NCBI GenBank assembly: GCA_030613505.1
Contig: JAUWLW010000006.1
Span: 18,566-82,565 of the forward strand
Direction: 5' to 3'
Length of the DNA stretch: 64,000 nucleotides
Origin: Candidatus Zixiibacteriota bacterium
GTDB taxonomy: Bacteria; RBG-13-66-14; B26-G2; WVWN01
The notes under the pieces are model-generated. The model saw only the letters and a list, made by a program, of their open reading frames with translations, ran no database searches and was not told the DNA's origin. A program made the position numbers and the translations under genes. Below are positions 7,451 through 59,983 of this stretch, one piece after another. Numbering within the stretch: position 1 is the stretch's first letter; the number at the start of each line of letters is the position of its first letter.

Positions 7451-7510
7451 TACAACGCCTCACTCACCACCTTCGCTTGCGGGCAAAGCAGCAGGTAGTC
7501 GCGGCCGCCG
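7451..7510 (-). repeat. displaced second copy of the P5C dehydrogenase 3' end
   Basis: These 60 bases match 8860-8919, the 3' end of the P5C dehydrogenase gene, at all but about seven positions, including an identical 20-base stretch at 7491-7510. In the dehydrogenase frame they read GGRDYLLLCPQAKVVSEAL-stop (true gene: GGRDYLLLFTQAKLVSEAL-stop). The overlapping GT87 gene uses a different frame and ends inside the repeat. A terminator follows 25 bases later, as expected for the original end of the dehydrogenase gene. Confidence 0.85.
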
Positions 7511-24257: not shown

Positions 24258-25229
24258 ATGGTTAAAGCAAATACGTTCGCGACGGTTTTAGTATTTTTGG
24301 CTTTACTCGCGGCAGCGGTAAGCTGCGAGGACGTCCCGACTTATACTTTACCGGGCCCGTACGTGCCGCCGCCGGTGAAGGGGGATGACGGCCGGCGTTT
24401 ATTATGGGAGCCCGGGCCGATGGAGGCACAGTGCTTCGAGCCGTCGTTTTCGCCCGACGGCACTAAGGTCGTCGTCAGTTACCGTTTCGGCATCTTCGCT
24501 CCTGCCGCGGACCTCGCGATATTAGACTTGACGACGGGCAAGATAAAAGTCATCGTCGAGGGCAACGTCGCCAAAAGGCCGGCGTGGTCGCCCACCGGCG
24601 AGTGGATAGCATATCAGAGCGACGCGGGGGTCGGCCGATATATTTGGTTGTGCCGGCCCGACGGCTCGGAAAACCACCGGTTGGAGTTTAAAAATGCGTT
24701 TACGCCACGTTGGGGTCCTAAAGGCGATAAGATTTATTTTTCTTACGTATATAACGCAAGGGAAAAGGATTACGGCGTTTACTATGACTTAGGCGAAGGA
24801 AAATTGGACGTTTTATACCGAGACCCGCTTAGGCACGTTGGCGTGTTAATACCATCACCCGGGGGGGAAGAAGTAGCTTTTTACCTACTAGACAATATAC
24901 ATAACGGCAACGATATAAACCTCGCCGCCATCAACGTGGATGGCTCAGGGTTCGAGGTGTTATGGCCCGCGGGCCCCTATAGGGTTTGGGCCGCGGCGCG
25001 TTCCTGGTCCGCCGACGGCCGGTATATACTAATGGGGTACGGCTACCCGGGTACTAGTATTGACGAGTTGGGGACGTACGAGCTAAAGACGGGGATATTC
25101 CGCCCGCTAACGATGTGTCCGCCGAGGCAGAAATACGAAAAAATACTGTACGCGTCGTGGGGGCCTAACGGCGATATAGTATTCGGGAACCATTTGGGCC
25201 GGCTGTCCTTGATCAAGGCGCCGGAGTAA
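24258..25229 (+). CDS. TolB-like beta-propeller lipoprotein, array copy 1
   Basis: 323 residues. Lipoprotein signal MVKANTFATVLVFLALLAAAVSC, cleaved before Cys-Glu-Asp-Val-Pro. A proline-rich linker (LPGPYVPPPVKGDDGRRLLW) leads to PD40/TolB-type blades: CFEPSFSPDGTKVVVSYR, RPAWSPTGEWIAYQSD, PRWGPKGDKIYFSY, SPGGEEVAFYLLD, RSWSADGRYILMGYGYP and ASWGPNGDIVFGNHLG. It ends LIKAPE. First of four paralogues, the only one with a distinct signal sequence. Glu at mature position +2 does not give the Asp+2 inner-membrane retention signal of E. coli. Ligand unknown. Confidence 0.8.
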   Translation: MVKANTFATVLVFLALLAAAVSCEDVPTYTLPGPYVPPPVKGDDGRRLLWEPGPMEAQCFEPSFSPDGTKVVVSYRFGIFAPAADLAILDLTTGKIKVIVEGNVAKRPAWSPTGEWIAYQSDAGVGRYIWLCRPDGSENHRLEFKNAFTPRWGPKGDKIYFSYVYNAREKDYGVYYDLGEGKLDVLYRDPLRHVGVLIPSPGGEEVAFYLLDNIHNGNDINLAAINVDGSGFEVLWPAGPYRVWAAARSWSADGRYILMGYGYPGTSIDELGTYELKTGIFRPLTMCPPRQKYEKILYASWGPNGDIVFGNHLGRLSLIKAPE

Positions 25230-25230
25230 G

Positions 25231-26196
25231 ATGTGTCGGCGGCTGGCGGCGTATTGGCTCGGCCTCTTAGTTATCGGGGGCTTGTCAGGTTGCGAGGACG
25301 TCCCGACTTATACTTTACCGGGGCCGTACGTGCCGCCGCCGGTGAAGGGGGACGACGGCCGGCGGCTGTTGTGGGAACCGAAAGACGAGTACGAAAAACA
25401 ATGTTACGAGCCGTCCTTCTCGCCGGACGGCACGAAGGTAGTCGTTAGTTATAGGAACGGCATTTTCGGGCGGGACGCGGACCTCGCGATACTTGATTTA
25501 AAGACGGGAAAATTGAATATAATAGTCAAGGGAAACTCCGCCAAAAGGCCTACGTGGTCCCCCACCGGCGAGTGGATCGCGTATCAGGGCGACCGTGAAG
25601 CCGCGCCGTATATCTGGTTGTGTCGGCCCGACGGCTCGGAAAACCACCGCCTCGAGTTCAAGTGGGCCTGGACGCCCCGGTGGGGCCCGGAGCGCGATAG
25701 AATTTATTTCGCGTACGCATATGAACCGCGGAAGATATACGGCGTGTATTACGACCTCGACGAGCAGGAGCTGCACGTTTTATACCGGGACCCGCTTCTC
25801 AACGTGGGGCCGCCGCTGCCGTCGCCGGGGGGCGAGAAGGTCGCGTTTTATCTTTGCGACGATTTACAAAATTATAAAGACGTTAACCTGGCCCTCATAA
25901 ACGCGGACGGCACCGGGTTAGACGTGATATGGCCTGCCGGCCGGGCGAGGTATTGGGCTGCGGCGCTGGCTTGGTCGCCCAGCGGAACGTACATCCTTAT
26001 GGGGTACGGCTACCCGAGCAGCGGCTTAGGCGAGTTGGGAACGTACGAATTAAAGACGGGGATCTTCCGGCCGGTAACTAAATGTCCGCCGAGGTTGGGT
26101 TTCGAGAGCATACAGTGTGCGTCGTGGGGCCCGAACGGCGACATCCTATTCGGTAACCATTTGGGCCGGCTTTACTTAATAGAGGCGCCGGAGTAA
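25231..26196 (+). CDS. TolB-like beta-propeller lipoprotein, array copy 2
   Basis: 321 residues, ATG two bases after the previous stop (TAAG-ATG). Signal MCRRLAAYWLGLLVIGGLSGC, then the same EDVPTYTLPGPYVPPPVKG linker and PD40 blades as copy 1. Differences cluster in short loops such as KDEYEKQCYEPSF, KWAWTPRWGPERDRIYFAYA and DLQNYKDVNLALINADGTG. Ends LIEAPE. One-base spacing implies coupled translation. Confidence 0.8.
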   Translation: MCRRLAAYWLGLLVIGGLSGCEDVPTYTLPGPYVPPPVKGDDGRRLLWEPKDEYEKQCYEPSFSPDGTKVVVSYRNGIFGRDADLAILDLKTGKLNIIVKGNSAKRPTWSPTGEWIAYQGDREAAPYIWLCRPDGSENHRLEFKWAWTPRWGPERDRIYFAYAYEPRKIYGVYYDLDEQELHVLYRDPLLNVGPPLPSPGGEKVAFYLCDDLQNYKDVNLALINADGTGLDVIWPAGRARYWAAALAWSPSGTYILMGYGYPSSGLGELGTYELKTGIFRPVTKCPPRLGFESIQCASWGPNGDILFGNHLGRLYLIEAPE

Positions 26197-26197
26197 G

Positions 26198-27163
26198 ATG
26201 TGGCGGCGGCTGGCGGCGTGTTGGCTTGGCCTCTTAGTTATCGGCGGCGCAGTAAGCTGCGAGGACGTACCTACGTCTACGCTGCCCGGGCCGTACGTGC
26301 CGCCGCCGGTGAAGGGCGACGACGGCCGGCGGCTATTGTGGGAACCGGGCCCGGGCGAAAGGCAGTGTTATAATCCAAGTTTATCGCCCGACGGTATGAA
26401 AGCGGTGGTTAGTTACCGGTACGGCTTTTTCGCCCGGGCGGCGGACCTCGGGGTACTGGATTTAACTACCGGCAAGATAAAGGTAATCGTAAGCGGCAAC
26501 TCCGCCAAGAGGCCGACGTGGTCCCCCACCGGCGAGTGGATCGCTTACATGAGCGACCGCGAGGCGGCGCCTTATATCTGGCTGTGCCGGCCGGACGGCG
26601 CGGAGCACCACCGCCTCGAGTTTAAAAACGCGTTTACGCCGCGGTGGGGCCCGGAGGGCGATAAAGTTTATTTCACTTATGACCTCAACCCGAGGGAAAA
26701 GGGATATGGCGTGTATTACGACCTCGACGAGGGGGAGTTGCACGTTTTATACCGCGACCCCCTTCGGCACGTGGGGCCGCCGCTGCCGTCGCCGGGGGGC
26801 GAGAAGGTCGCGTTTTACCTCTGCGATAATTTACAGAGTTATAAAGACGTTAACCTGGCCCTCATAAACGCCGACGGCACCGGTTTTGAGGTAATATGGC
26901 CTGCGGGCCGGGCGAGGTATTGGGCCGCGGCGCTGGCCTGGTCGCCCAGCGGGAGGTACATCCTTATGGGTTACGGCTACCCGGGGAGCGGCTTAGGCGA
27001 GTTGGGGACGTACGAGCCCAAGACCGGGATATTCCGGCCCCTCACTAAGTGTCCGCCGAGGCTGGAATACGAAAAAATACTGTACGCGTCGTGGGGGCCG
27101 ATAGGGGACATATTATTCGGCAACCATTTGGGCCGGCTTTACTTAATAGAGGCACCGGAGTAA
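26198..27163 (+). CDS. TolB-like beta-propeller lipoprotein, array copy 3
   Basis: 321 residues, again one base after the preceding stop. Signal MWRRLAACWLGLLVIGGAVSC and EDVPTSTLPGPYVPPPVKG linker. Blade loops vary (GPGERQCYNPSL, LNPREKGYGVYYD); the last 60 residues are nearly identical to copy 4, suggesting recent duplication or gene conversion. Confidence 0.8.
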   Translation: MWRRLAACWLGLLVIGGAVSCEDVPTSTLPGPYVPPPVKGDDGRRLLWEPGPGERQCYNPSLSPDGMKAVVSYRYGFFARAADLGVLDLTTGKIKVIVSGNSAKRPTWSPTGEWIAYMSDREAAPYIWLCRPDGAEHHRLEFKNAFTPRWGPEGDKVYFTYDLNPREKGYGVYYDLDEGELHVLYRDPLRHVGPPLPSPGGEKVAFYLCDNLQSYKDVNLALINADGTGFEVIWPAGRARYWAAALAWSPSGRYILMGYGYPGSGLGELGTYEPKTGIFRPLTKCPPRLEYEKILYASWGPIGDILFGNHLGRLYLIEAPE

Positions 27164-27164
27164 G

Positions 27165-28127
27165 ATGTGGCGGCGGCTGGCGGCGTGTTGGCTTGGCCTA
27201 GTAATTCTCGGCGGCTTGGTAGGCTGCGAAGACGTGCCGACGTCGACGCTGCCCGGGCCGTACGTGCCGCCGCCGGTGAAGGGGGACGACGGCCGTCGCC
27301 TGTTGTGGGAGCCCGGGCCGATGGAGGCGCAGTGCTTCGAGTCGTCTTTCTCGCCGGATGGGACCAAGGTAGTAGTGAGTTATCGTTTCGGGATCTTTGC
27401 CCGGGCCGCGGACCTCGCGATATTGGATTTGACGACGGGCAAGATAAACGTTATAGTCGAGGGCAACTGCGCCAGGAGGCCGACGTGGTCGCCGACCGGC
27501 GAGTGGGTCGCGTATCAGAGCGACGGCGAGGCGGCGCCGTATATCTGGTTGTGCCGGCCCGACGGGTCCGACAACCACCGCCTCGAGTTCAAATGGGCCC
27601 GGACGCCGCGGTGGGGCCCGGAGGGGGATAAAGTTTATTTCGCATATATTTACGAACCGGGGAAAGAATATGGGGTATATTACGACCTCAACGAAGAGAA
27701 ATTGGGTATATTATACCGCGACCCGCTCCTAAAGGTTGGCCCGCCGCTGCCGTCGCCGGGGGGCGAAAAGGTCGCGTTTTACCTCTTCGATAATTTACAG
27801 AATTATAAAGACGTCAACCTGGCCCTCATCAACGCGGACGGCTCAGGGCTAGAGGTGATATGGCCGGCGGGTCGGCCGAGGTGGTGGGCGGGGGCGCTGG
27901 CTTGGTCCCCCGACGGGAGGTACATTCTAATGGGTTACGGCTATCCGGGGAGCGGCTTAGGCGAGCTGGGTACGTACGAGCCGAAGACCGGGATCTTCCG
28001 GCCCCTCACTAAGTGTCCGCCGAGGCTGGAATACGAAAAAATACGGTACGCGTCGTGGGGCCCGAACGGGGACATCCTATTCGGCAACCATTTGGGCCGG
28101 CTTTACTTAATAGAGGCGCCGGAGTAA
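27165..28127 (+). CDS. TolB-like beta-propeller lipoprotein, array copy 4
   Basis: 320 residues. Signal MWRRLAACWLGLVILGGLVGC. The N-terminal blade resembles copy 1 (GPMEAQCFESSFSPDGTKV) while the middle and end resemble copies 2 and 3 (NLQNYKDVNLALINADGSG, PRLEYEKIRYASWGP), a mosaic pattern expected from recombination within the array. Same linker, same LIEAPE end. The barrel-like protein follows 20 bases later and may share the transcript. Confidence 0.8.
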   Translation: MWRRLAACWLGLVILGGLVGCEDVPTSTLPGPYVPPPVKGDDGRRLLWEPGPMEAQCFESSFSPDGTKVVVSYRFGIFARAADLAILDLTTGKINVIVEGNCARRPTWSPTGEWVAYQSDGEAAPYIWLCRPDGSDNHRLEFKWARTPRWGPEGDKVYFAYIYEPGKEYGVYYDLNEEKLGILYRDPLLKVGPPLPSPGGEKVAFYLFDNLQNYKDVNLALINADGSGLEVIWPAGRPRWWAGALAWSPDGRYILMGYGYPGSGLGELGTYEPKTGIFRPLTKCPPRLEYEKIRYASWGPNGDILFGNHLGRLYLIEAPE

Positions 28128-35585: not shown

Positions 35586-37142
35586 TTACCTACGGAACGC
35601 CCGCCGTAGCGCGAGGATGGCGAAAGTTAATAATGCGCCGCCGGTTAATTTCTGGGCTGTATTAATTAAGAAATCGATGGCTGGTGCTTCGCGGGGCGGT
35701 AGCGTTATAAAGTTTTTAAAAGCCGACCAAAATTTGCCCCACAAGAATTTGATCGGTTCTAAATTATCTATAGGGAGTTTTATTGATATATATTCCCAAG
35801 GATAGATGAAATTACCTTTTATTAAATCGGACATACCTGCTATTTCGTTTGCGAAACTTACAATGGTTAGCATTACGAACGAAACGTACCAAAGGGTTAA
35901 AAGCCAACCCAAGGGCCTAATAACGTCTTCGCCGTAATTACTCACGTATTTATATATCCTTAGGAAGAATTTTTTCGAATCCGGGAATCTTGGGTCGGCG
36001 AGTAGCATTTCCATTTGACCTACGTGGAAATCGGACGCTTGTTCAAAAGCGAGTCGGCTTTCGAAATTTTGCCTTATTAAGCGGTAAATTTCGCCTACTC
36101 TTTCATAAGTCATTTCTTCTTCGCCTATGAGGTCTTCTTCACGTACGGTTTTTCTTTTATCACCTTCGGTTTTCCATATGGTTTCTTCGAATCCGAAAAT
36201 TCCCGGGTTTTTTATTGCCGTAGTTCCCGTAAAGCGCCATTTTCTTACTGATGTTTTATAAGTGTAGACTTCGCTTTTATCGTAGAAATGGCAATAGGTT
36301 AAATCTATTTCCGCTTCGGGGATTATTATTTTTATATTATTTTCTTCATCCCTAATGAATTCGCTTTTTGCGTCGCGGGCGTAATTATTAACCACCCGGT
36401 CTAAGAATAGATAGTTGAAGCATTCTATTCCTATAAATAAACCCCGTCGCCTAAACTCGGCTTCGGAAAAGTACGTTTCGCCTTTAAACGTCGCACGATG
36501 GAATAAGGTGGCTTCTTTAAACACGGCGGTTGTGAAACGAGTTTCCCCCAGGAACTTAGCGTTGGAGAAAATTGCTTTTCCTCCGAAAAAATTACCGCGG
36601 AAATCTGCTTCTTCGTGGAATTCGGCCCCCCTAAAATTAGCCTCGGCCAAGAACCGGCCCTTTCGAAAATCCGCTACACAAAAAAACTTCGAATCCGCGA
36701 AATTCGCTTTTAGGGAAAATAAAGACTCGCTAAAATCCGCGAAGCCTGGGTATTCTAACGTACCCATAGTGGTATACATTTTTATTAGAAGGAATTCCGG
36801 ACACCGGCGGAATTCCGTTGCAACGAATACGACTTGCCCTTTAAATTCTAGCCCCGCGAATTCCGCATCTCCGTAGAAGACCGCGTTAGTAAAGGTAATA
36901 TGAAAAGGTATTTCTTTAGGGAATCTCCATTCTCCGAAAGGCGGGAATACGAAATACGAACAATCGAATAATATAACGGCTTTGTTTTCCGCTTCCTCGT
37001 ATTCCTTAAGTGTTTCTTCGAAGTATGTTTTGAATCTTTCCCAAAAATCCTTAGGTTTCTTTTTATCTATAGGCGCATGGAAAATACAATCTCCTTCTTT
37101 CGTTTCCGCGTCCCTTCCGCACCAACAGTTTTTTCCGCTCAT
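35586..37142 (-). CDS. pentapeptide-repeat membrane protein with Cys-rich head and channel-like tail
   Basis: 518 residues from ATG 37142 behind AGGAGG. The N-terminus has CWCGRD....DCIFH, a knuckle-like C-x-C...C-x2-H set. Residues about 75-250 are pentapeptide-like repeats rich in A-x-F and F-xx-A (NAVFYGDAEFAG, FRGAEFHEEADFRGNFFGGKAIF, FKGETYFSEAEF). FEQASDFHVGQMEM then leads to two or three TM helices near 405-518, the layout of pentapeptide/ion-channel fusions but without any TxGYG filter. Codons are strongly A/T-ending, unlike mnmE and mnmG on either side, so it looks horizontally acquired. Function unknown. Confidence 0.7.
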   Translation of the reverse strand: MSGKNCWCGRDAETKEGDCIFHAPIDKKKPKDFWERFKTYFEETLKEYEEAENKAVILFDCSYFVFPPFGEWRFPKEIPFHITFTNAVFYGDAEFAGLEFKGQVVFVATEFRRCPEFLLIKMYTTMGTLEYPGFADFSESLFSLKANFADSKFFCVADFRKGRFLAEANFRGAEFHEEADFRGNFFGGKAIFSNAKFLGETRFTTAVFKEATLFHRATFKGETYFSEAEFRRRGLFIGIECFNYLFLDRVVNNYARDAKSEFIRDEENNIKIIIPEAEIDLTYCHFYDKSEVYTYKTSVRKWRFTGTTAIKNPGIFGFEETIWKTEGDKRKTVREEDLIGEEEMTYERVGEIYRLIRQNFESRLAFEQASDFHVGQMEMLLADPRFPDSKKFFLRIYKYVSNYGEDVIRPLGWLLTLWYVSFVMLTIVSFANEIAGMSDLIKGNFIYPWEYISIKLPIDNLEPIKFLWGKFWSAFKNFITLPPREAPAIDFLINTAQKLTGGALLTFAILALRRAFRR

Positions 37143-37152
37143 CTTTCCTCCT

Positions 37153-38499
37153 TCACTTCCCAATACAAAACCGACTGAAAATCTCGCCGTAGATCTCCTC
37201 GATATCTATGGCGCCGACGATGCGGCCGAGGGCGTCGGAGGCCAAACGCAGCTCCTCCGCGCCCAGCTCCTCGATGCCGCTTGAGGCTAGGTGCTCGCGG
37301 GCGCGGTAGAGCGAGGCCGCGGCCTCCTCCAGCAACCGCCGCTCACGAGCGGAGAGCGACAGCTTCCCCGGCCCCTCCTCGGCGGCGTCGCGCGCGGTCG
37401 CGCGGCGGACCAGCTCGGCCACCACCTTGTCTACGCCGCGGCCCGTCCTGGCCGATATCGCCAGCCGGTCCTTCCGCGCCAGCGCCTGCGGCCACCCCGC
37501 CGCTAACGGCAGGTCGCACTTGTTCACGACGTGGATGAGCTTTTCCGGCGCGACCATCGGCTGCTTGCGCGGCGGCGGCCGCGAGCCGTCGTCCAGCCAG
37601 ACAACGAACGCCGCCTCCTCCACGTACGCCCGGGCGCGGCGAATCCCCTCCTGCTCGACGACGTCGTCGCCCTTCGCGTCCAGGCCCGCGCCGTCGGAGA
37701 GGCGGAAGAGGATCCCGCCCGCTATGTACGGCGCGTCGATGCGGTCCGTCGTCGTGCCGGCCCTGGCCGTCACGATCGCGCGCTCCTCGCCCAGCAGGCG
37801 GTTGAAGAGGGTGGACTTGCCGACGTTGCGCCGGCCTGCGATGGCGACGGTGAGGCCCTCCACCAGCGCGGCGCGGTCCCGGCTCGAGGCCACGAGGGCC
37901 CGCGCGCCGGCCTCCGCGGCGGCGACCAGCGTCAGGACCCTTTCGCTCTTGACGTCCTGCTCGAACTCCAGCGCGGCCTCCACCAACGCCCGGGCGGAGA
38001 GGACGCGCTCGCGCAGGCCGTTTATTTTATCCGATAGCTCGCCCGCCAGGCGGCGGAGGGCGTCGGCTCGAGCCTCGGCGGTGCGCGCGTCGGCCAGGTC
38101 CGCGACGGCCTGCGCCGCGGCGAGGTCGAGCTTGTCGTTACCGACGGCGCGCCAGGTGAACTCGCCCGGCTCCGCGGCGCGGGCGCCGGCGGCGTACAGC
38201 GCCTCCAGCGCGGCCTCCAGTACCGCCGGGCCGGCGTGGGTGGTCAGCTCGGCCATGTCCTCGCCGGTGTAGGAGTTGGGCGCGGCGTAGAGGACGAGGA
38301 CGGCGCGGTCGACGACCTCCGCCGTCTCGGGGTGGACGAGGTCGCCGACGCGGGCGACGCGGGGGGCGGCGGCCGCCCGGGCGCGGAAGACCTTGTCGGC
38401 TATCTCGCGCGTCGCGGGGCCGCTCAGGCGTATTACGGCCAGCGCGCCCCGGCCGGGGGGCGTCGCCACGGCGGCTATGGTGTCGCCGTCTCGAAACAC
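37153..38499 (-). CDS. mnmE: tRNA modification GTPase MnmE
   Basis: 448 residues. The folate-binding N-domain (DTIAAVATPPGRGALAVIRLSGP) is followed by a helical domain carrying the G domain: VAIAGRRNVGKSTLFNRLLGEERAIV (G1), GTTTD (G2), DGAGL (G3, usually DTAGL) and NKCDL (G4). The C-terminus ends FSRFCIGK, the essential CxGK motif. Works with MnmG. Confidence 0.95.
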   Translation of the reverse strand: MFRDGDTIAAVATPPGRGALAVIRLSGPATREIADKVFRARAAAAPRVARVGDLVHPETAEVVDRAVLVLYAAPNSYTGEDMAELTTHAGPAVLEAALEALYAAGARAAEPGEFTWRAVGNDKLDLAAAQAVADLADARTAEARADALRRLAGELSDKINGLRERVLSARALVEAALEFEQDVKSERVLTLVAAAEAGARALVASSRDRAALVEGLTVAIAGRRNVGKSTLFNRLLGEERAIVTARAGTTTDRIDAPYIAGGILFRLSDGAGLDAKGDDVVEQEGIRRARAYVEEAAFVVWLDDGSRPPPRKQPMVAPEKLIHVVNKCDLPLAAGWPQALARKDRLAISARTGRGVDKVVAELVRRATARDAAEEGPGKLSLSARERRLLEEAAASLYRAREHLASSGIEELGAEELRLASDALGRIVGAIDIEEIYGEIFSRFCIGK

Positions 38500-45621: not shown

Positions 45622-45705
45622 GGAATCGGTGCTTTCCCTAGAAAGCCGCGAGGGTAAAACCTGCCGATTCCCTTTCTAATCCCCCGCTTCGGCGGGGTTT
45701 TTTTA
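45622..45705 (+). ncRNA. putative orphan small RNA, about 80 nt
   Basis: Between a plus-strand promoter and a plus-strand terminator lie about 60 bases with a clear fold: GGAATCGG (45622-45629) pairs perfectly with CCGATTCC (45664-45671), and the enclosed part can form CTTTC/GAAAG (45632-45645) or CCCT/AGGG (45636-45654). No open reading frame of note. It does not match any RNA family I can recognise (not 6S, 4.5S, tmRNA or a common riboswitch). No plus-strand gene follows, so it would act in trans or antisense. Confidence 0.5.
45680..45705 (+). terminator. Rho-independent terminator of the small RNA
   Basis: CCCCGC-TTC-GGCGGGG-type stem (45682-45697) followed by seven T and TATT on the plus strand; there is no T-run on the minus strand, so it is oriented for plus-strand transcription. 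Confidence 0.8.
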
Positions 45706-46581
45706 TTCTCCGGGAGGCGCGTCGAATATACGGATACCGTATTTTAAATGGAGAGGGGTCTCCGGGTTATTGCTTTCCCAATGAAGCCCGCGTACTTTAG
45801 AATATAATATACGTATATCATCTCTTTCTTGCCTTTCGGCGTTTAAAATATATGCGATAATATCTGCTAATTCGATGCCGGCGGTACAGGATGAATCGGC
45901 GAATAATACGGCTTGGACATTGCGCCATTCTCTCCCTCTTTGGTGGCCGAATGTATATCTCCAAAAGTTATTTAGCGTTTTGATGTCGCTAGCCCTATCC
46001 GTCTCATCGAAAACCAATATGGCCGCTTCGGTTGTCGAGATCTCTTCGCACATCAGGTTTATACGTTCTATTAACCTTTGATACCAAATTGAAAGTACCC
46101 GGTCATTCGCTGTCCCGGAGGGGCGCGTAGAAATACTAGCGAAAACCTTACACCCGTAGTATCCTGCTATCTTAAGAAGTTTAATGATTTCTTCTACGAC
46201 TACCGGAAATCGACTAACCATATTACTATTAAGTAGTTCTCTACCCTTCAATTCGAAGTCAGACATATCTGATAGCGTAGGGGGAACTCTATGCCCAGGT
46301 ATTTTAACGAATCTCCCCTCATTAATGTTTTCTTCGGATAAATCTCTACCTAATTTTATGGCTTTACCTTTTTTATAGAACGCGAAATCGCGGGGGATCT
46401 CGTAAGGCCCTAGGCGACCGAATTCTAAGTATAACGTATTACATAAAGCACGTTTATACCGGAATACTTCCCAATGGAAATCCCTCGCCCGGTGGCTTTC
46501 CAAGCTAACCGCCGCCAATACCGCGTATCTCGACGGGCTCGCCGGGTGATACTTCCCGCTTTCGTCCACGAAGAACAACAT
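45703..46581 (-). CDS. DUF3800 domain protein
   Basis: 292 residues. MLFFVDESGKYHPASP at the N-terminus, AILVFDETDRASD in the middle and GIELADIIAYILNA near the end are the three acidic DUF3800 blocks, thought to form an RNase H-like metal site. Many DUF3800 proteins sit in mobile or defence contexts. Codons are strongly A/T-ending against GC-rich nadE and rsmI on either side, suggesting acquisition. Activity unknown. Confidence 0.75.
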   Translation of the reverse strand: MLFFVDESGKYHPASPSRYAVLAAVSLESHRARDFHWEVFRYKRALCNTLYLEFGRLGPYEIPRDFAFYKKGKAIKLGRDLSEENINEGRFVKIPGHRVPPTLSDMSDFELKGRELLNSNMVSRFPVVVEEIIKLLKIAGYYGCKVFASISTRPSGTANDRVLSIWYQRLIERINLMCEEISTTEAAILVFDETDRASDIKTLNNFWRYTFGHQRGREWRNVQAVLFADSSCTAGIELADIIAYILNAERQERDDIRILYSKVRGLHWESNNPETPLHLKYGIRIFDAPPGE

Positions 46582-46597: not shown

Positions 46598-47440
46598 TTA
46601 AAAAATTTCGGGTAGTTTTAAAGGTTTATTTATCGTCCTGCCGGTAACTTGGGCGATAACCGGCACCTTGCGCTTGAAGAGGTTGCGGTTTATCAGGCCG
46701 ATGACGTGCCGCTGGAAGTCGGCGTCGAAGCCGCGCTCCAACAGCTTCGCCGGCCTCTCGCCCTTCTCGACGAGGTAATACAGGTACCGGTCGACCTGGA
46801 AGTAGAAGATGCCCATCTCACCCTCGTCCGTCTGCCCGGGCCAAAGGCCGGCGGAGGGCGTCTTTTGGATAATCCGGTCCGGGACGCCGAGCGCCTCCGC
46901 CAGTAAGTACACCTGCCCTTTATATAAATCCGCGAGCGGCGCGACGGAGCAGGCGGCGTCGCCGAAGAGCGTGAAGTAGCCCAGCAGGAGCTCGGTCTTG
47001 TTGCCGGCCCCCATCACCATCGCGTTCGCTTCTTTGGACCGGTCGAAGAGGACGATCATCCGCGCGCGGGCGCAGACGTTGCCGCGCCGTACGTCGTCCA
47101 CCTCGCCGGCCTGCGCCAGGTACGCGTCCGCCATCGGCGTTATCGATATCTCTTTGAATTTGATGCCGAAGCGCTCGACGACCGCCTGGACGTCGTCGCG
47201 GTCGCTCGCGTCGTGGTAGGGGAGCCATAGGCCGGTGACGTTCTCGGCGCCGAGGGCGGCGGCGGCCAGGGCCGCGGCGGCCGCGGAGTCTACGCCGCCG
47301 GATATTCCCAAGACGATGCCCTTCAGGCCGGCGTTTTCCACCTCGCGGCGGATGAAGCGTTCCAGCACCGGCCGGACGAGGTCGACGTCGATCGTCAATT
47401 CGGGTGGGTATTTTCCTTGCGATCCGTTTTCGGGGATCAT
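46598..47440 (-). CDS. nadE: NH3-dependent NAD+ synthetase
   Basis: 280 residues. GIVLGISGGVDSAAAAALA is the PP-loop, with GNVCARARMIVLFDRS, MGAGNKTELLLGYFTLFGD and KTPSAGLWPGQTDEGEMG as further NadE motifs. No glutaminase domain, so it uses ammonia. Amidates nicotinate adenine dinucleotide to NAD+. Confidence 0.94.
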   Translation of the reverse strand: MIPENGSQGKYPPELTIDVDLVRPVLERFIRREVENAGLKGIVLGISGGVDSAAAAALAAAALGAENVTGLWLPYHDASDRDDVQAVVERFGIKFKEISITPMADAYLAQAGEVDDVRRGNVCARARMIVLFDRSKEANAMVMGAGNKTELLLGYFTLFGDAACSVAPLADLYKGQVYLLAEALGVPDRIIQKTPSAGLWPGQTDEGEMGIFYFQVDRYLYYLVEKGERPAKLLERGFDADFQRHVIGLINRNLFKRKVPVIAQVTGRTINKPLKLPEIF

Positions 47441-51729: not shown

Positions 51730-54327
51730 GTGAAAAAGCGCCGCCTTCTCGTCGTCGATACGATGAACCTCGTCTTCCGGGCCTACTACGCGCTCATCGG
51801 CAGGCCGCTCCGCACCACCGACGGCCGCAATACCTCCGCCGTCTTCGGCTTCGCGCGCATGCTCCTCAAAGCGCTCGCCGACTACCGGCCCACGCACGTC
51901 GTCGTCGCGCTGGAGGGGGGCGGCCCGACCTTCCGCGAGGAAATATATCCGGAGTATAAGGCCACGCGCAAGGCGCCCCCCGACGACCTCGTCGCGCAGA
52001 TCGAACCCGTCAAGGAGTTCGCCCGCCTGCTGGGCCTGGCCGTCGTCGAGAAGGAGGGTATGGAGGCCGACGACGTCGTCGCGACGCTGGCGCGCGGCGG
52101 CGCCGGCCCGTTCGACGAAGTCCTCATACTCTCGGGCGATAAAGACCTGATGACGCTGGTGGGCGGCGGCGTCAAGTTGCTCGCGCCCAGGACCGGCGTC
52201 TCCGACATAGACGAGATGGACGCCGCGGCGGTGGAGGCCAAGATGGGGGTCCCGCCGGCCGCGGTGCCGGACCTCTTGGCGCTGGAGGGCGACAGCGCCG
52301 ACAACGTCCCCGGCGTGGCCGGCATCGGCGAGAAGACCGCCCGGGCGCTGCTCGAGCAGTACGGCTCGCTCGACGGCGTCTTCGCGCACCTGGACGACGT
52401 CGAGCCCAAGCGCGCGCGGACGGCGCTCGAGAAGGGGCGCGCCTCGGCCGAGCTTTCGCGCACACTCGTCGGCCTCAAGGACGACCTCGAGCTGGGCTTG
52501 GACGCCGCGGCGCTCGAGCCCAAGGGCCGCGACGAGAAGGCGCTGTGTTCCTTTTTGAAAGAATATGAGCTCAAGACGCTGGCGGAGGAGTTGGGGGTCG
52601 GCGCGGCGCCGGCGGACGAGCTGAAGCCGGACCTGGTCTCGGCCGAGGAGCTCGCACCCACGGCGCCGGAGGCGGGGGACGAGTGGCTCGGCTTGGAGGC
52701 CGTCGTACGGGGGGGAGAGTTCGCGGGCGCGGCGCTGGCCGCGGGGGCCGAGCGCGTGACCTTGCTCGACGGTTCGCCGGCCGAGGTCGTGCCCAAACTC
52801 GAGAAAATTTACCAGGAGTCCGAGCTGCCGCTGGCGGGGCACGATACGAAGCGGCTGGTTCACCTAATGGGCCCGGAGGTCAGGTTCGACGGCGACACGA
52901 TGCTCGCGGCGTACCTCCTCAACCCCGAGCGCGTAAACTACCGCCTGGCGGACCTGGCGTACGAGTACCTCAAAGTGCAGCTCCCCGCCAAGGAGGCGGA
53001 GGGGGAGCTGGCGTTCGGCGAGGGGGCGCGCGACGAGGCCGCGGCCCGGGCGCAGGCGGTGGCCCGCCTGGCCGAGGTTACGGCGCGGCTGGTCGAGCAG
53101 CAGGACATGGGCGAGCTCTACCGCGACCTGGAGGTCCCGCTGGCGCCGGTGCTCGGCGCCCTCGAGGAGCGCGGCGTCAAAATAGACCGGCCCCACTTCG
53201 CCAAGCTGGCGCGCAGCTTCGAGAAATATTTGAAGAAGGCCGAGGGCGAGCTGTACGAGCTGGCGGGCGGCGATTTTAACCCCAACTCGCCCATCCAGCT
53301 GCGCGAGATCCTCTTCGACCGGCTGGGCCTGAAGCCCACGCGCAAGACCAAGACCGGTTACTCTACCGCCGCCGACGTCCTGGAGACGTTGGCCGAGGAA
53401 CATCCCCTCCCGGCCAAGATATTGGCGTACCGCGAGCTGGCGAAGCTCAAGAACACGTACGTCGACGTCCTGCCGACGCTGGCGGATGAGAACGGCCGCG
53501 TACACACGACGTTCAACCAGGCCGCGACGGCCACCGGCCGCCTGAGCTCCGCCGACCCCAACCTCCAGAACATCCCCATCCGCACGGACCTGGGCGCCGA
53601 GATCCGCAAGGGCTTTGTCCCCGGCGACGGCCTGGTCTTCCTCTCGGCGGACTACGCCCAGGTGGAGCTCCGCATCCTGGCCCACGTCGCCGACGACCCG
53701 GGCCTGCAGCAGGCCTTCGCCGAAGGCAAGGACATCCACGGCGCGACGGCCTCCGAACTGTTCGACGTCCCGTTCGACAAGGTGAGCCGCGAGCAACGAA
53801 CGCTGGCCAAGGCCATCAACTTCGGCCTGGCGTACAAGATGGGGCCGCGCCGCCTCGCCCGCGAGACCGGCCTCTCGGTCAAGGAGGCCGAGGCGTACAT
53901 CGAGAAATATTTTACGCGCTACCCCGGCGTGAGGCGCTTCATCGACGAGGAAATAGAGCGCGCGCACCGGGAAGGCTACGTCCACACGGTCCTGGGCCGT
54001 CGGCGTTACCTGCCCGATATCGCGTCCGACAACAGCCGTGCCCGGGCCGCGGCCGAGCGCGTAGCGGTGAATATGCCCATCCAGGGGTCGGCCGCGGACA
54101 TCCTCAAGCTCGCGATGGTCGCGCTCGAGCGCCGCCTGCGGGACGAAACGCTAAAGGCGTGGATGCTGTTGACCATCCACGACGAGCTGCTGTTCGAAGC
54201 GTCGCCCGAAGACGTCGATGAGTTGGAGGCGCTGGTCAAAGAGGAGATGGTCGGCGTCTTGAACCTCAAGGTACCGCTCGAGGTGCACGTCGGGATAGGT
54301 TATAATTGGCTGGATGCGCATAGGTAG
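51730..54327 (+). CDS. polA: DNA polymerase I
   Basis: 865 residues from GTG 51730. Residues 1-290 are the 5'-3' exonuclease (VVDTMNLVFRAYYA, EADDVVATLA, ILSGDKDLMTLV, GDSADNVPGVAGIGEKTA). Residues about 315-470 keep the fold of the 3'-5' exonuclease but its catalytic acids are gone (LGLEAVV in place of FDTET), so no proofreading is expected. The polymerase domain has TATGRLSSADPNLQNIPIRT (motif 1/T), LSADYAQVELRILAHV (A), RTLAKAINFGLAYKMGP (B) and LLTIHDELLFE (C). The last codons read NLKVPLEVHVGIGYNWLDAHR; a diverged second copy lies past the next gene. Confidence 0.96.
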   Translation: MKKRRLLVVDTMNLVFRAYYALIGRPLRTTDGRNTSAVFGFARMLLKALADYRPTHVVVALEGGGPTFREEIYPEYKATRKAPPDDLVAQIEPVKEFARLLGLAVVEKEGMEADDVVATLARGGAGPFDEVLILSGDKDLMTLVGGGVKLLAPRTGVSDIDEMDAAAVEAKMGVPPAAVPDLLALEGDSADNVPGVAGIGEKTARALLEQYGSLDGVFAHLDDVEPKRARTALEKGRASAELSRTLVGLKDDLELGLDAAALEPKGRDEKALCSFLKEYELKTLAEELGVGAAPADELKPDLVSAEELAPTAPEAGDEWLGLEAVVRGGEFAGAALAAGAERVTLLDGSPAEVVPKLEKIYQESELPLAGHDTKRLVHLMGPEVRFDGDTMLAAYLLNPERVNYRLADLAYEYLKVQLPAKEAEGELAFGEGARDEAAARAQAVARLAEVTARLVEQQDMGELYRDLEVPLAPVLGALEERGVKIDRPHFAKLARSFEKYLKKAEGELYELAGGDFNPNSPIQLREILFDRLGLKPTRKTKTGYSTAADVLETLAEEHPLPAKILAYRELAKLKNTYVDVLPTLADENGRVHTTFNQAATATGRLSSADPNLQNIPIRTDLGAEIRKGFVPGDGLVFLSADYAQVELRILAHVADDPGLQQAFAEGKDIHGATASELFDVPFDKVSREQRTLAKAINFGLAYKMGPRRLARETGLSVKEAEAYIEKYFTRYPGVRRFIDEEIERAHREGYVHTVLGRRRYLPDIASDNSRARAAAERVAVNMPIQGSAADILKLAMVALERRLRDETLKAWMLLTIHDELLFEASPEDVDELEALVKEEMVGVLNLKVPLEVHVGIGYNWLDAHR
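54262..54293 (+). repeat. 3' end of polA, upstream member of a direct repeat
   Basis: 32 bases identical at 31 positions to 57088-57119. The two copies bracket the restriction-modification gene. Confidence 0.85.
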
Positions 54328-54343
54328 GAAAGGGGTAAGGATA

Positions 54344-57061
54344 ATGAAGAAGGAAGTCGGTTTATTAAAGAAGTATATTCTAAGTAGTAGGTCCGAAGAC
54401 TCGACCGATTACTTGGTGGAGCAATTTATACGTTCGGTTTACGGCAAGTTCCAAAAAGGGTCGGAGGCGGAAGGGGTAGATATTTACGTCGAAGGTAGGT
54501 TGGCGGTTGAACTTAAGACAAAACCAGAAGATTGGTTAAGCGCGTTTTACCAGGTGCAACACTACCGTAAAAAGGGCCAGGAATTCGGTGCGTTTTGTGT
54601 AATCGCACATAAATTCGTCGGATTATGGAAAGTTAATGATATACCCAAGTTCGCCGCGGAACTCGCGAAAAAGGCCGCCGCGAAATTACCGCCAAATAAG
54701 GTCGGCCCGATGAACGCCCGAAAAACGAATAAGGGACAACAGGCGGAAATAATCAATAGCGCCGCTTTTTGTATCACGCCGGAGATAATTGATAAAGAAA
54801 GCCTTTTTAAAGAGGACATAGACGTATTATTAGCCGAGTTCGTGGACGCGCTTAAAAACGTAGAATCCCGACGCCAACAAATAAACCCCCGCAATTTCAT
54901 ACAGAAAGTAGAGTACCTAAAGCGATTTTTCGACGACCCGATGGATGCGATACACTGTTTTTATACGATATTAAATTATTGGGACGCTACCTCCGTCGTA
55001 CCGGAACCGCAAGTCGCGGCGCCCTCGCGGTTAGTAGTAGTAAAAGAAAATGGCCGTCGAATGAGCGAGAGTTTCGACGTTAATCCGCGATACCAACGCG
55101 AATTCCGAAAATTCATCGAAAACCATTATGTATTTACGAACGAGGGTTCAGGTTTAACTGTAGACTACTACTTTAGTAGGTTCGATGAAGTTTTAACGCA
55201 GTTGAAGCCCGAATACGCAAAACAGCACGGGATATTTTTCACGGATCATAATTTGTGTAAGTTCGCCCTCTGGTTCGTACATCGATACTACGAAAATAAG
55301 TTGAGCGAAAAATACATCATTTTAGACCCGGCTGCCGGGTCGGGAAATCTCGTAACCAGTTGGAGAAACCACCTAAAGCATAAGATCGTATCGGAATTAG
55401 AGCCGGATTTGTTAAAGATAATCGAACGCCGGATGAAGGCCGATGCCGACCAAGTAAAAATCGGATTTACGATCGTGCCTAAAACGGCATTAGGCATCGG
55501 CTTAAATTTCCTCGACAAACCCGGCGCGGAATACCTCGAAGCATTAAAAGATGCTTTACGAGAAAACAACCTACGGTTAAATAAACCTTTAGCTTTCCTG
55601 CTAAACCCCCCTTATAAGAGCACGGACGAAAACGTTTCTATAAGGGCCGGCGTGGAAGCTGATTATCAGATTAACCCCTCGATATTAACGCTTACAGGCA
55701 AAGACGCGGGGAAGGAAAGGTACCTCGCGTTCTTGGGGCAAATCGTTAATATATCGAAAGAACAAGTCGCCGAGAAACCGGACTTTAAACCCATTGTGAT
55801 GATATTTACGCCTACTTCTTGGTTGGTGCCGCGGCCTTCTTACTTGGATTTTCGTAAGGAATTCGATAGGTATTTTAAGTACGAAAAAGGTTTTATTATA
55901 ACCGGTAACGAGTTTTTCAAAATCAAAGGTACGTTCCCGATATCTTTTACGATCTGGAGGTTTAACCATCGAGAGAGCGGCAATAAAAACGTAGTGCGTT
56001 TGAAAGACTATACCGCGTTAAAGAACGCAGAATTAAACGATATTAATTGGGAATTACCGTTTAAAAAACTTGACACGGTTGTAGGTCGTCTCGTCCGCGG
56101 GAGTAAGTCAGTCTCTTACGGTAGAGCGAGATCGCTAATAAAAGAATGGTGCGGGCAACGGATGTACGACTTTAAGCGTTCGCGTACGAAAAGAGAATTA
56201 ACGGAGGCAGTAGTAGGTGGATTACCATTAAGAGACGAAAGGCGGGCTAATAAAAAAACCTACGGCGTTACTAATTCAGCCGTTATCGGGTTTATGGATG
56301 ACGGTTCGCCGGTAAGGGTTAAACCCAAAGAGGATGTTCGTTTTGGTAAGGAATCAGGCGCGTTCGTCTGGTTTAGGTTAGATAACGATTTGAAAAGCGC
56401 TAATAGAACCAGGTGTTTAAATGGCCCACCCGATAAGTATGGTTATTGCGCTTTCGATTTAACATCCGCTAAGCGCACTTTTCTATGGTTCGCGCTCACT
56501 AAAGCTCTCAATGGCCGGTATCCTACTTGGGCCAACCAGCTCGATATCTGGGTGCCCGAGATTAAAAGTACTCTAAAGAATTATTTTTATTCGTTGTGCT
56601 TCGCTTTCGGCCTTGCTAACAACGGTTGTGTAGTTACTAAGTTCGAAGCCAATAATCCGGTGCCGGGCGCGCCCGAGGTTTTCGTCGGTAACCCCTTATG
56701 TCCTTCGGATCCGGGTTCATTTTGGTCGGAGGTTCTAGATGACGAAATAATTCGGAGACCCAATACTGCGACGGTGTTGGTTGGCGCTGTTAAAGGCCTT
56801 TACGATTTATGGCGTAGTAAATATTGCCCCCAGCCGAAAATCGAACACGTCGGCCTAAAGGAAGAACCGTATTTTAAGTATTTCGGTTATCCGGACTTTA
56901 TAACGCCTTATTCGGGCTTAGTTCAAATACGCAAGTACGCGGATCTTAGAGCAGTGCCGGATTTAAACGAAGCAATAAACGACGTTAAAACCAAGGCTAA
57001 AATAGTTCTAGATACTATTTACCGTTTATTGGTAGATGAATTCCGATATTTCGAGAGTTAG
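54344..57061 (+). CDS. single-chain type IIG-like restriction-modification enzyme
   Basis: 905 residues from ATG 54344 (54314 is an earlier in-frame ATG overlapping polA). The N-terminal 110 residues carry a PD-(D/E)xK-like nuclease core (GVDIYVEGRLAVELKTK). An adenine-specific N6 methyltransferase follows: HGIFFTDHNLCKFALWFV, motif I ILDPAAGSGNLVTSW near residue 337, and motif IV FLLNPPYKS near residue 420. The remaining ~450 residues should include the target-recognition domain. Such fusions cut and methylate the same site. Codons are strongly A/T-ending versus polA. It starts 16 bases after polA and is followed by a displaced polA 3' end. Confidence 0.8.
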   Translation: MKKEVGLLKKYILSSRSEDSTDYLVEQFIRSVYGKFQKGSEAEGVDIYVEGRLAVELKTKPEDWLSAFYQVQHYRKKGQEFGAFCVIAHKFVGLWKVNDIPKFAAELAKKAAAKLPPNKVGPMNARKTNKGQQAEIINSAAFCITPEIIDKESLFKEDIDVLLAEFVDALKNVESRRQQINPRNFIQKVEYLKRFFDDPMDAIHCFYTILNYWDATSVVPEPQVAAPSRLVVVKENGRRMSESFDVNPRYQREFRKFIENHYVFTNEGSGLTVDYYFSRFDEVLTQLKPEYAKQHGIFFTDHNLCKFALWFVHRYYENKLSEKYIILDPAAGSGNLVTSWRNHLKHKIVSELEPDLLKIIERRMKADADQVKIGFTIVPKTALGIGLNFLDKPGAEYLEALKDALRENNLRLNKPLAFLLNPPYKSTDENVSIRAGVEADYQINPSILTLTGKDAGKERYLAFLGQIVNISKEQVAEKPDFKPIVMIFTPTSWLVPRPSYLDFRKEFDRYFKYEKGFIITGNEFFKIKGTFPISFTIWRFNHRESGNKNVVRLKDYTALKNAELNDINWELPFKKLDTVVGRLVRGSKSVSYGRARSLIKEWCGQRMYDFKRSRTKRELTEAVVGGLPLRDERRANKKTYGVTNSAVIGFMDDGSPVRVKPKEDVRFGKESGAFVWFRLDNDLKSANRTRCLNGPPDKYGYCAFDLTSAKRTFLWFALTKALNGRYPTWANQLDIWVPEIKSTLKNYFYSLCFAFGLANNGCVVTKFEANNPVPGAPEVFVGNPLCPSDPGSFWSEVLDDEIIRRPNTATVLVGAVKGLYDLWRSKYCPQPKIEHVGLKEEPYFKYFGYPDFITPYSGLVQIRKYADLRAVPDLNEAINDVKTKAKIVLDTIYRLLVDEFRYFES

Positions 57062-57078
57062 TCCCCCGTGTGGTCTTT

Positions 57079-57153
57079 GAAGTTTTCAACCTCAAGGTCC
57101 CGCTCGAGGTGCACGTCGGCGTTGGAAAGAACTGGCTCGAGGCCCACGGCTAA
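57079..57153 (+). pseudogene. displaced 3' end of polA
   Basis: In one frame the bases read EVFNLKVPLEVHVGVGKNWL then EAHG-stop, matching the end of PolA (NLKVPLEVHVGIGYNWLDAHR) and in fact closer to the usual family ending GVGKNWLEAH. It begins about 18 bases after the R-M gene stop. The first 32 bases of the match are almost identical to polA; the rest differs mainly at third codon positions. Confidence 0.85.
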
Positions 57154-57176: not shown

Positions 57177-57371
57177 TTGCGCATATCCGTTCTCGTGGTT
57201 ATAATTACGGTGGCCGCGCTGGCGGCGTGCGGCGGTTGCGCGAAGAGGGCGGAAGAGGTTATAGTGGTACCCCGGTGCGATTGCGACGAGCCGTGCCCCG
57301 AGTGCGTTTGCGAGGAAGAGGTCAAGGCTCGCGCGGGCGAAGCCGAGGGCGCCGAGAAAAGCGGACTTTAA
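57177..57371 (+). CDS. small Cys-rich lipoprotein
   Basis: 64 residues from TTG 57177 with AGGAGGT upstream. Signal MRISVLVVIITVAALAAC gives a lipobox LAAC; the mature part has CGGCAKRAEEVIVVPRCDCD and EPCPECVCEEE, seven further cysteines in C-x-C and C-x2-C pairs, then an acidic tail. A metal- or redox-active envelope protein is possible; family not recognised. Confidence 0.6.
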   Translation: MRISVLVVIITVAALAACGGCAKRAEEVIVVPRCDCDEPCPECVCEEEVKARAGEAEGAEKSGL

Positions 57372-58403: not shown

Positions 58404-58494
58404 TCGAGCGGGGCATAGTTTAACCGCTTAGAGGAAGGTTGTCAAGGGGCGGCGGTTCTGGCGACGCTGCCCTTTATATAAGGATATTTTATTA

Positions 58495-58547
58495 CCCGGC
58501 TAAACCCGCGCCGCGGCGCCGCGGTCAAAAGTTAAGGTTGAGGTAGA
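58495..58547 (+). repeat. 53-bp exact direct repeat, copy 1 (upstream of tagged propeller gene)
   Basis: Identical to 59859-59911. Contains the perfect 14-bp palindrome CCGCGGCGCCGCGG (58511-58524) and ends 72 bases before an ATG. A TATATT box follows about 17 bases later, so this is probably an upstream control region. Confidence 0.9.
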
Positions 58548-58618
58548 TTTACCCCCCCGCGACGTTATATTATAATTTATAAAATCGGGGTAGCAGTAAT
58601 CGAACGTAGGAGGGGACG

Positions 58619-59650
58619 ATGAAGCGTTTAACTTTCCCCGCAATAATTATATTCTCGGCCGTAGCGGCGACCGCGGCGTTCGCAGCGTGGGAGGAGGTCC
58701 CGCTCCCGCCCAAGGAGGACGCTGCCATTGGCTGGATGGACTTCGCGCGGCCGGACCTCGGCTTCGCGTGCACCAGCGACCCCCTCGACCCGCGGCCTTT
58801 CCTTACGTACGAAAACGGCCGGTGGATGGACGGGAGCTTCGTGTTCAACGCCCTCGCGGGGGACGGGTGTTTCCTCCCGAGCGGCTACGGCTGGGTCGTG
58901 GGGGCGAGCACGCGGATATACCCGTGCATTTATACGTTGCGCCTGCAGGCGGGCTCGAGCCAGTTGGAGTACGTACCCAATCCGTACAGCAGTCCGCCCG
59001 GCGCCAAAGGCGGCGGGCCGAGGGTACGCTTCGCCGCGGAGGAGGACGGGTGGCTTCTGCTCAGTTCGCCGAACGAATTGCTCCGATACGAGGACGGCTA
59101 CTGGCGAACCGTCGGGAATCCGCTGCCGGTGGAGTTAGGTTACGCCAGGGACATTTGCTTTCCTACGGCCGACGAGGGGTGGGTCTGCGGCTCGAGCGGC
59201 TTCGCGCACTACAAGGACGGGAAATGGGAGTTCGTCCCGGGGCCCCAGGTAGACGGGCTCGACTTCACCGCGCGCGACGACGGTTGGGCGATGTCGTACG
59301 GCGATACGGGGACGATTTACCACTACGACGGCTCGTCGTGGTCCGTCTCATATTCCGCGCCGGGCTATTACGTCAACGGTTTAGGCTTCCACGACCGTAA
59401 TAACGGCTGGGCCATACTTTCGGGATACGGCGTCGAATCGCGATGGTTGAAATACGATAACGCCGGATGGCACAAAATAATCCCGCCCAATGGTCAATCG
59501 GGGTACTTCCCTACGCCCTTCCACGAGGAAGCTTGGTTCGAAGGTTTCAAAATCGAAAAAGGCAAGATCGTTAAAACGAGCTGGCATTGGACGACGGCGC
59601 CGAACGTACGGCCGGCGTCCCTCGGGCGCGTGAAGGCGTTGTTCCGGTGA
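58619..59650 (+). CDS. secreted propeller-like protein with C-terminal SLGRVKALFR tail
   Basis: 343 residues, AGGAGGGG ribosome site. Signal peptide MKRLTFPAIIIFSAVAATAAFA. Blades of the BNR/Ycf48 kind recur: NELLRYEDGYWRTVG, EGWVCGSSGFAHYKDGKWEFV, DGWAMSYGDTGTIYHYDGSSW, NNGWAILSGYGVESRWLKYDNAGW. It ends VRPASLGRVKALFR, the tail shared with the 20.0 and 28.9 kb proteins. Copies of a 53-bp repeat lie upstream of this gene and upstream of the next one. Predicted exported; ligand unknown. Confidence 0.75.
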   Translation: MKRLTFPAIIIFSAVAATAAFAAWEEVPLPPKEDAAIGWMDFARPDLGFACTSDPLDPRPFLTYENGRWMDGSFVFNALAGDGCFLPSGYGWVVGASTRIYPCIYTLRLQAGSSQLEYVPNPYSSPPGAKGGGPRVRFAAEEDGWLLLSSPNELLRYEDGYWRTVGNPLPVELGYARDICFPTADEGWVCGSSGFAHYKDGKWEFVPGPQVDGLDFTARDDGWAMSYGDTGTIYHYDGSSWSVSYSAPGYYVNGLGFHDRNNGWAILSGYGVESRWLKYDNAGWHKIIPPNGQSGYFPTPFHEEAWFEGFKIEKGKIVKTSWHWTTAPNVRPASLGRVKALFR

Positions 59651-59708: not shown

Positions 59709-59983
59709 GTGTTAATTTTGTGTCAAAATTCCCCCGCGTAGCGATTTGTTCCCCTGAATTACCGTTAATTTCCCGATACCGTAATTCCCTGAAATAAAAA
59801 GCGGTTGCCCCATAGTGGTCCGCAACCGCTGAGCTTATTAAAAGGGATAGTTTTACCGCCCGGCTAAACCCGCGCCGCGGCGCCGCGGTCAAAAGTTAAG
59901 GTTGAGGTAGACTAAAACGCCCCAAGAGGTTATATTTCCCGTAAGTATTTTAAAACGTCCAGGACTTCTTACCGGAGGCCGCA
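59709..59983 (+). other. leader/upstream region of the macroglobulin gene
   Basis: About 275 bases with no gene. Holds an inverted repeat AGCGGTTGC (59800-59808) / GCAACCGCT (59822-59830) with a 13-base loop, the second 53-bp repeat, then TAGACT (59908-59913), 17 bases, and TATATT, a plausible promoter before ATG 59984. Confidence 0.45.
59859..59911 (+). repeat. 53-bp exact direct repeat, copy 2 (upstream of macroglobulin gene)
   Basis: Identical to 58495-58547, with palindrome at 59875-59888. It ends 72 bases before ATG 59984, the same spacing as copy 1 to its gene. Confidence 0.9.

Follow-up and report, generated by a model that had tools for sequence, protein, structure and literature searches.

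The question raised by this locus is how a restriction-modification (R-M) gene came to lie directly behind polA, with a second ending of polA stranded beyond it. The window, i.e. the whole stretch of DNA that was analysed, is 64,000 nucleotides long and belongs to the genome of a Coatesbacteria-type bacterium, 2.86 Mb in 100 contigs. We have compared this genome with three relatives of the same genus, G001, G002 and G003, the comparison being limited to a few loci.

The two endings of polA

The polA gene (51730-54327, plus strand) is intact and, by its translation, encodes a DNA polymerase I of 865 residues with 91% and 85% amino acid identity to its siblings. The R-M gene (54344-57061, plus strand, 905 residues) starts with an ATG 16 nt past the polA stop, and twenty nucleotides beyond its own stop begins the displaced polA ending (57082-57153, plus strand), which is 72 nt long to the stop codon. 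The two endings form a direct repeat (54256-54320 and 57082-57146) of 65 nt with 80% identity, in which the differences are distributed very unevenly: only 1 occurs in the 32 nt starting at 54262 (54262-54293, plus strand; 31/32 common to both copies), while 14 of the remaining 34 positions differ (Fisher p = 2e-4), mainly at third codon positions, as the preliminary description of this DNA had reported. A DNA search of the genome found the polA tail at two places only, both at the polA locus.

The native copy can be recognized by comparison with the relatives, since in G001, which has an empty site, polA adjoins the same small lipoprotein-like gene (57177-57371, plus strand, TTG start) that here trails the displaced copy in synteny with G001. 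In G003 the R-M gene is also missing and polA is directly followed by the next gene along; no match to the R-M protein was found in G001, G002 or G003. The displaced copy differs from the G001 ending at 5 of 34 positions, all of them third codon positions, suggesting that it was the working end of polA until recently. It is in frame only as a polA ending and continuous with the native downstream DNA, so that there is no sign of the independent conserved gene that had been considered as an alternative.

The last 34 nt of the current polA (54294-54327, plus strand) present the reverse picture. Here 12 of 34 positions differ from G001, mostly third codon positions, as compared to 3 of 32 in the core and 78 of 866 (9.0%) in the upstream part of the gene (p = 2e-5 for the excess, binomial against the upstream rate), and the GC content of the last 36 nt is 0.47, versus 0.58-0.61. 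In the last 34 nt the displaced copy has 5 and 7 differences from the two siblings and the current end 12 and 14, which agrees with the earlier remark that the displaced copy is nearer to the family. From these sequence comparisons we conclude that the displaced copy is the native polA end and the current end is foreign, as had been proposed for comparison with relatives lacking the R-M gene (G001 and G003). Judging by its many third-position differences and low GC, the current ending was probably shaped as the 3' end of polA in a different lineage richer in A/T, and was brought in together with the R-M gene; no donor lineage for it was found. We read the 31/32 core as the signature of a crossover inside a short homology, and thus as the likely crossover interval.

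The restriction-modification gene

As noted from the beginning, the R-M gene is rich in A/T-ending codons (GC3 = 0.49, versus 0.91 for polA). A Pfam search gave no match for its protein, there is a weak, partial NCBIfam match to the adenine methyltransferase family TIGR02987, and PDB sequence searches yielded nothing useful. Among the homologues the motifs DPAxGSGN and NPPY vary little or not at all, and a candidate D..ExK is present at residues 46-58. With a structural model of low confidence (mean pLDDT 59), the top Foldseek match, and the sole PDB match below E = 0.001, was the type IIG enzyme BpuSI (E = 6e-5). On the basis of sequence and model, type IIG-like appears to be a fair label for this gene, not a proof.

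Homologues with 47-65% identity occur in a Candidatus Coatesbacteria genome, Ignavibacteriae, Syntrophaceae, Bacteroidetes and others, a spread that fits a pattern of wide transfer. No flanking direct repeats were present at eleven of these homologues (12 loci, one genome being present twice). The repeats therefore derive from the target and not from the R-M gene, and the possibility that they are a property of this R-M family was ruled out. The insert behind polA consists of a single long ORF, the R-M gene itself, and has no integrase gene; in accord with the original observation, no integrase, transposase or tRNA att site was found at the polA locus. The genome has 6 tyrosine recombinases (PF00589), none of them at the repeat-flanked loci described below; the four that were examined are XerC-like, XerD-like and, in two cases, phage-like, and none reaches the curated cut-off for integron integrases.

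Other cases in the window

An intact aldehyde dehydrogenase gene (8859-10409, minus strand; PF00171, E = 2e-147) is followed by a GT87 glycosyltransferase gene (7460-8761, minus strand; PF09594, E = 8e-24), whose end runs into a displaced native tail of the dehydrogenase (7451-7510, minus strand) that forms a direct repeat; G003 has the empty site. This is presumably the other, unrelated cargo with the same arrangement that had been mentioned together with polA, and it is real. In G001 the same junction between GT87 and tail is found, together with a second GT87 copy and another tail in between, so the flanking repeat probably served a tandem duplication. A third case is intergenic: two direct copies of D7, a 72-nt element (58487-58558 and 59851-59922), surround a gene at 58619-59650 (plus strand), while G001 has only one copy and a different gene at that place.

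Some further genes of the window deserve mention. An A/T-rich DUF3800 gene (45703-46581, minus strand; GC3 = 0.46; PF12686, E = 2.5e-11) behind the gene at 46598-47440 is absent at the same place in G002 and G003 and has no detectable flanking repeat; it is an insertion without the repeat signature. A pentapeptide-repeat gene with GC3 = 0.43 (35586-37163, minus strand), lying between GC-rich genes, is probably another acquired gene. A tandem run of four paralogous genes, of approximately 321 residues each, occupies positions 24258-28127.

Recurrence of repeat-flanked genes in the genome

We have also scanned 1.50 Mb (53%) of the genome for repeats of at least 38 nt lying 0.3-8 kb apart, removing pairs flanked by paralogous protein sequence. 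The scan gave 39 isolated direct pairs versus 1 inverted pair (118 versus 4 before the paralogue filter). The resulting density was 26 pairs per Mb; the sequence scanned came mostly from the initial 20 kb of the contigs, and repeats may be overrepresented there. With the same procedure the density was 0-2.5 per Mb in three controls: 0 pairs in 0.15 Mb of E. coli K-12, 0 in 0.3 Mb of S. meliloti pSymB, and 1 in 0.4 Mb of G002, whose low count is weak evidence, as its short contigs are joined by 100 Ns (for the same reason G002 was ruled out as a long-read control). In other genomes, a limited sample of loci (0.23 Mb in all) contained 2 pairs. A safer number of pairs for our genome is approximately 30 or somewhat fewer, because six pairs on contig C11 mostly reflect a shared C-terminal motif and some others involve short interspersed elements.

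The DNA between the repeats has a GC content of 0.53, versus 0.61 in the flanks (p = 3e-7), and the cargo across the genome is mostly not R-M. In a scan for gene tails, 16 isolated downstream tails were found after setting aside the C-terminal motif family, and in about eleven of these the alignment extended across the stop codon or close to it; the upstream control gave 5, two of which are the same events viewed from the cargo. The genome scan that had been proposed to show whether the pattern is systematic thus bears out the recurrence of direct pairs, but not a restriction to gene tails: the repeats around cargo also cover gene heads and intergenic DNA, so that tails are not a special target but one class of a broader process. 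For the same reason we do not retain the idea that the process always keeps the essential gene whole, since intact genes are probably the outcome of selection rather than a goal of the process. In the comparison of insertions between this genome and G002 detectable repeats were seldom present; either not all insertions are of the repeat-flanked kind, or old insertions lose the repeat. At about 30 junctions inspected by eye the cargo ends displayed no terminal inverted repeats or shared motif.

Two features of individual loci bear on the mechanism. A second mosaic is present in an R-M-like tail on contig C33, with 3 of 84 positions different in the core and 14 of 33 past it. Arrays also occur: at G001:C88 there are 4-5 copies of one tail with cargo between, and yebC of our genome has possibly three tail copies.

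Several side observations were made in the course of these scans. The separators of the cargo gene array of G001:C88 (locus L213, 1-1500) are copies of a tail encoding ATDRKIDELVYELYGLTDEEI, which we take to resemble the C-terminus of R-M methyltransferases. Many proteins encoded on contigs C10, C11, C12, C30, C38 and C100 share a C-terminal motif like P.SLGRVKALFR/K-stop, often with signal-peptide-like starts and NHL-type repeats, and this motif may be a C-terminal sorting or anchoring signal. The intergenic DNA of our genome and of G001 contains short palindromic interspersed elements of the form GTAGGGGCG...CGCCCCTAC (for example near 530 of L213 and on contigs C42 and C41), some of them within displaced tails. 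On contig C78 (8140-9251) an intact ClpC-like gene is preceded, at a distance of 1 kb and with cargo in the interval, by an A/T-rich, degenerate copy of its head; this is a gene-head mirror of the polA case. Finally, locus L056 of G003 has, on the reverse complement at 10579-10692, a second copy of the DNA adjoining a tRNA-Leu; the two copies are approximately 5 kb apart and enclose NHL-repeat genes.

Origin of the arrangement

The explanation that we favor, with slightly better than an even chance of being correct, is that a molecule consisting of a donor tail plus cargo, probably a circle, integrated at polA by one crossover. The molecule would have come from a diverged relative and would have carried a short piece of the polA 3' end followed by the R-M gene; a single crossover with the resident polA would then have occurred inside the 32 bp over which the two are nearly identical. 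For a circular molecule, the expected order of the product is resident polA with the last 34 nt of the donor, the R-M gene, the donor polA remnant joined to the resident ending, and the native downstream DNA. PolA would have remained intact, as the piece from the donor extended as far as the stop codon, and the flanking repeats could recombine again, giving tandem arrays or clean loss. This account builds on the observed empty site, native ending, mosaic join, genome-wide recurrence and arrays at other loci; the mosaics at polA and C33 have the form expected after one crossover between diverged homologues, and the ratio of 39 direct pairs to 1 inverted pair and the low GC of the cargo also count in its favor. 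A circle carrying one tail and the cargo would need only one crossover, and the resident tail would thus be left behind the cargo; the arrays in G001, and possibly that of yebC, could reflect the same crossover repeated. Against this account, a 32-bp homology is short for RecA, on which the crossover would presumably depend, and some other pairs are 97-100% identical and would require a close donor or a different mechanism. Support for a circle is also weak on the right-hand side, where the donor-like part of the copy spans only 6-9 nt; the identity of the donor and the route of entry are likewise suppositions of the account.

The alternatives have to be weighed against the same observations. 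The R-M gene could have entered non-homologously, duplicating approximately 70 nt of the resident polA end, with the copies diverging later. Insertion with long target duplication is described for R-M genes of Helicobacter (Nobusato et al. 2000, as reported in PMC3031569 and PMC1643837), and it would account equally well for the several pairs of this genome that are 95-100% identical (that of C62 is 100% identical over 99 bp); the several repeats that continue beyond the stop codon through the terminator, and the repeats in intergenic DNA and gene heads, also speak for it. The earlier proposal that cargo and a donor's 3' end recombine by short homology is favored by the mosaic at polA, but several of the near-identical pairs could be plain target duplications. 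At polA, however, a plain duplication predicts the reverse pattern of divergence: the current copy, on which selection acts, has accumulated the most changes, with an abrupt onset past the core and a preference for third positions, and the released copy has a native appearance; for this locus we therefore consider the explanation unlikely. Still less likely, in our judgment, is homology-facilitated illegitimate recombination, in which a linear donor would have been joined at one end through the homologous polA tail and at the other through a chance microhomology upstream of the crossover, duplicating the tail. Loss of resident DNA is a more frequent outcome of such recombination than a duplication of 40-240 bp, and the process does not on its own lead one to expect arrays in which cargo alternates with copies of one tail. 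On the other hand it needs no circle and suits the short donor-like stretch at the right junction, and PMC3240628 describes it as known from three species with natural competence and as reported for conjugation in E. coli.

An assembly artefact or a mixture of strains, setting the tails of two strains on either side of the cargo, seems very improbable. The genome does look like a metagenome assembly, and the yebC tails, on contigs C99 and C7, could belong to two strains, so that strain mixture may affect single loci such as this one. Nevertheless, contig ends overlap by exactly 141 bp, indicating a k = 141 de Bruijn assembly without scaffold gaps, and junctions should therefore be supported by reads; the junction between GT87 and tail is also present in the separate assembly of G001, and there is a single polA locus in the genome.

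Relation to known systems

The integration by one crossover that we favor can be compared with several known systems. With long target duplication the locus shares a single accessory gene, often R-M in that system, a long direct target repeat flanking the insert, an empty site in a close relative and the lack of a transposase. It differs in that the copies are not both resident-derived: the left copy at polA is a diverged homologous ending (12/34 from G001, against 9% upstream), whereas the displaced copy is native; the mostly non-R-M cargo of this genome is a further difference. For rhs genes, circular intermediates with displaced 3' ends have been proposed (Jackson et al. 2009, PMC2935791). 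As in that system, where homologous recombination is limited to related donors, the old 3' end of polA is displaced downstream and a new one appears to have been attached by homologous crossover; arrays of displaced ends are found at other loci of the genus, not at polA. In rhs, though, the new ending is a different functional domain, while at polA it is a homologous housekeeping ending and the passenger is a separate gene behind it. In transposed Arabidopsis genes direct repeats homologous to the target also flank the genes, and circles integrating at these repeats are the explanation (Woodhouse et al. 2010, PMC2869330), but the organism is a eukaryote and the movement is within the genome. 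Integrative islands in gene 3' ends, such as SGI1 at trmE (PMC8409611), also restore the 3' end of the target gene with element-borne sequence; here the element is without an integrase and there are many target genes, and thus no single att site. The polA case unites the known ideas of long target duplication and circular intermediates; the genes concerned are housekeeping genes, and the insertions are densely spread within a single genome.

Implications

For most single accessory genes of bacteria, no vehicle can be seen in the genome. It is possible, though we hold it as doubtful, that this genus gains single genes by a cycle that recurs without any transposase: small circles, each joining the end of a host gene to a passenger, would excise and integrate by short-homology crossovers, with ordinary gene ends acting as attachment sites and cassette-like arrays as a product. 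An insertion of the polA type is a way to place a gene behind an essential gene without breaking the latter, and the dozens of repeat-flanked single-gene insertions point to a homology-driven route without transposase as a simple way of gaining genes. The high density of insertions, together with mosaic joins that record the place of the crossover, makes the mechanism of single-gene gain readable in this genome, and the succession of tail, cargo and displaced tail is a simple signature that can be searched for in other genomes.
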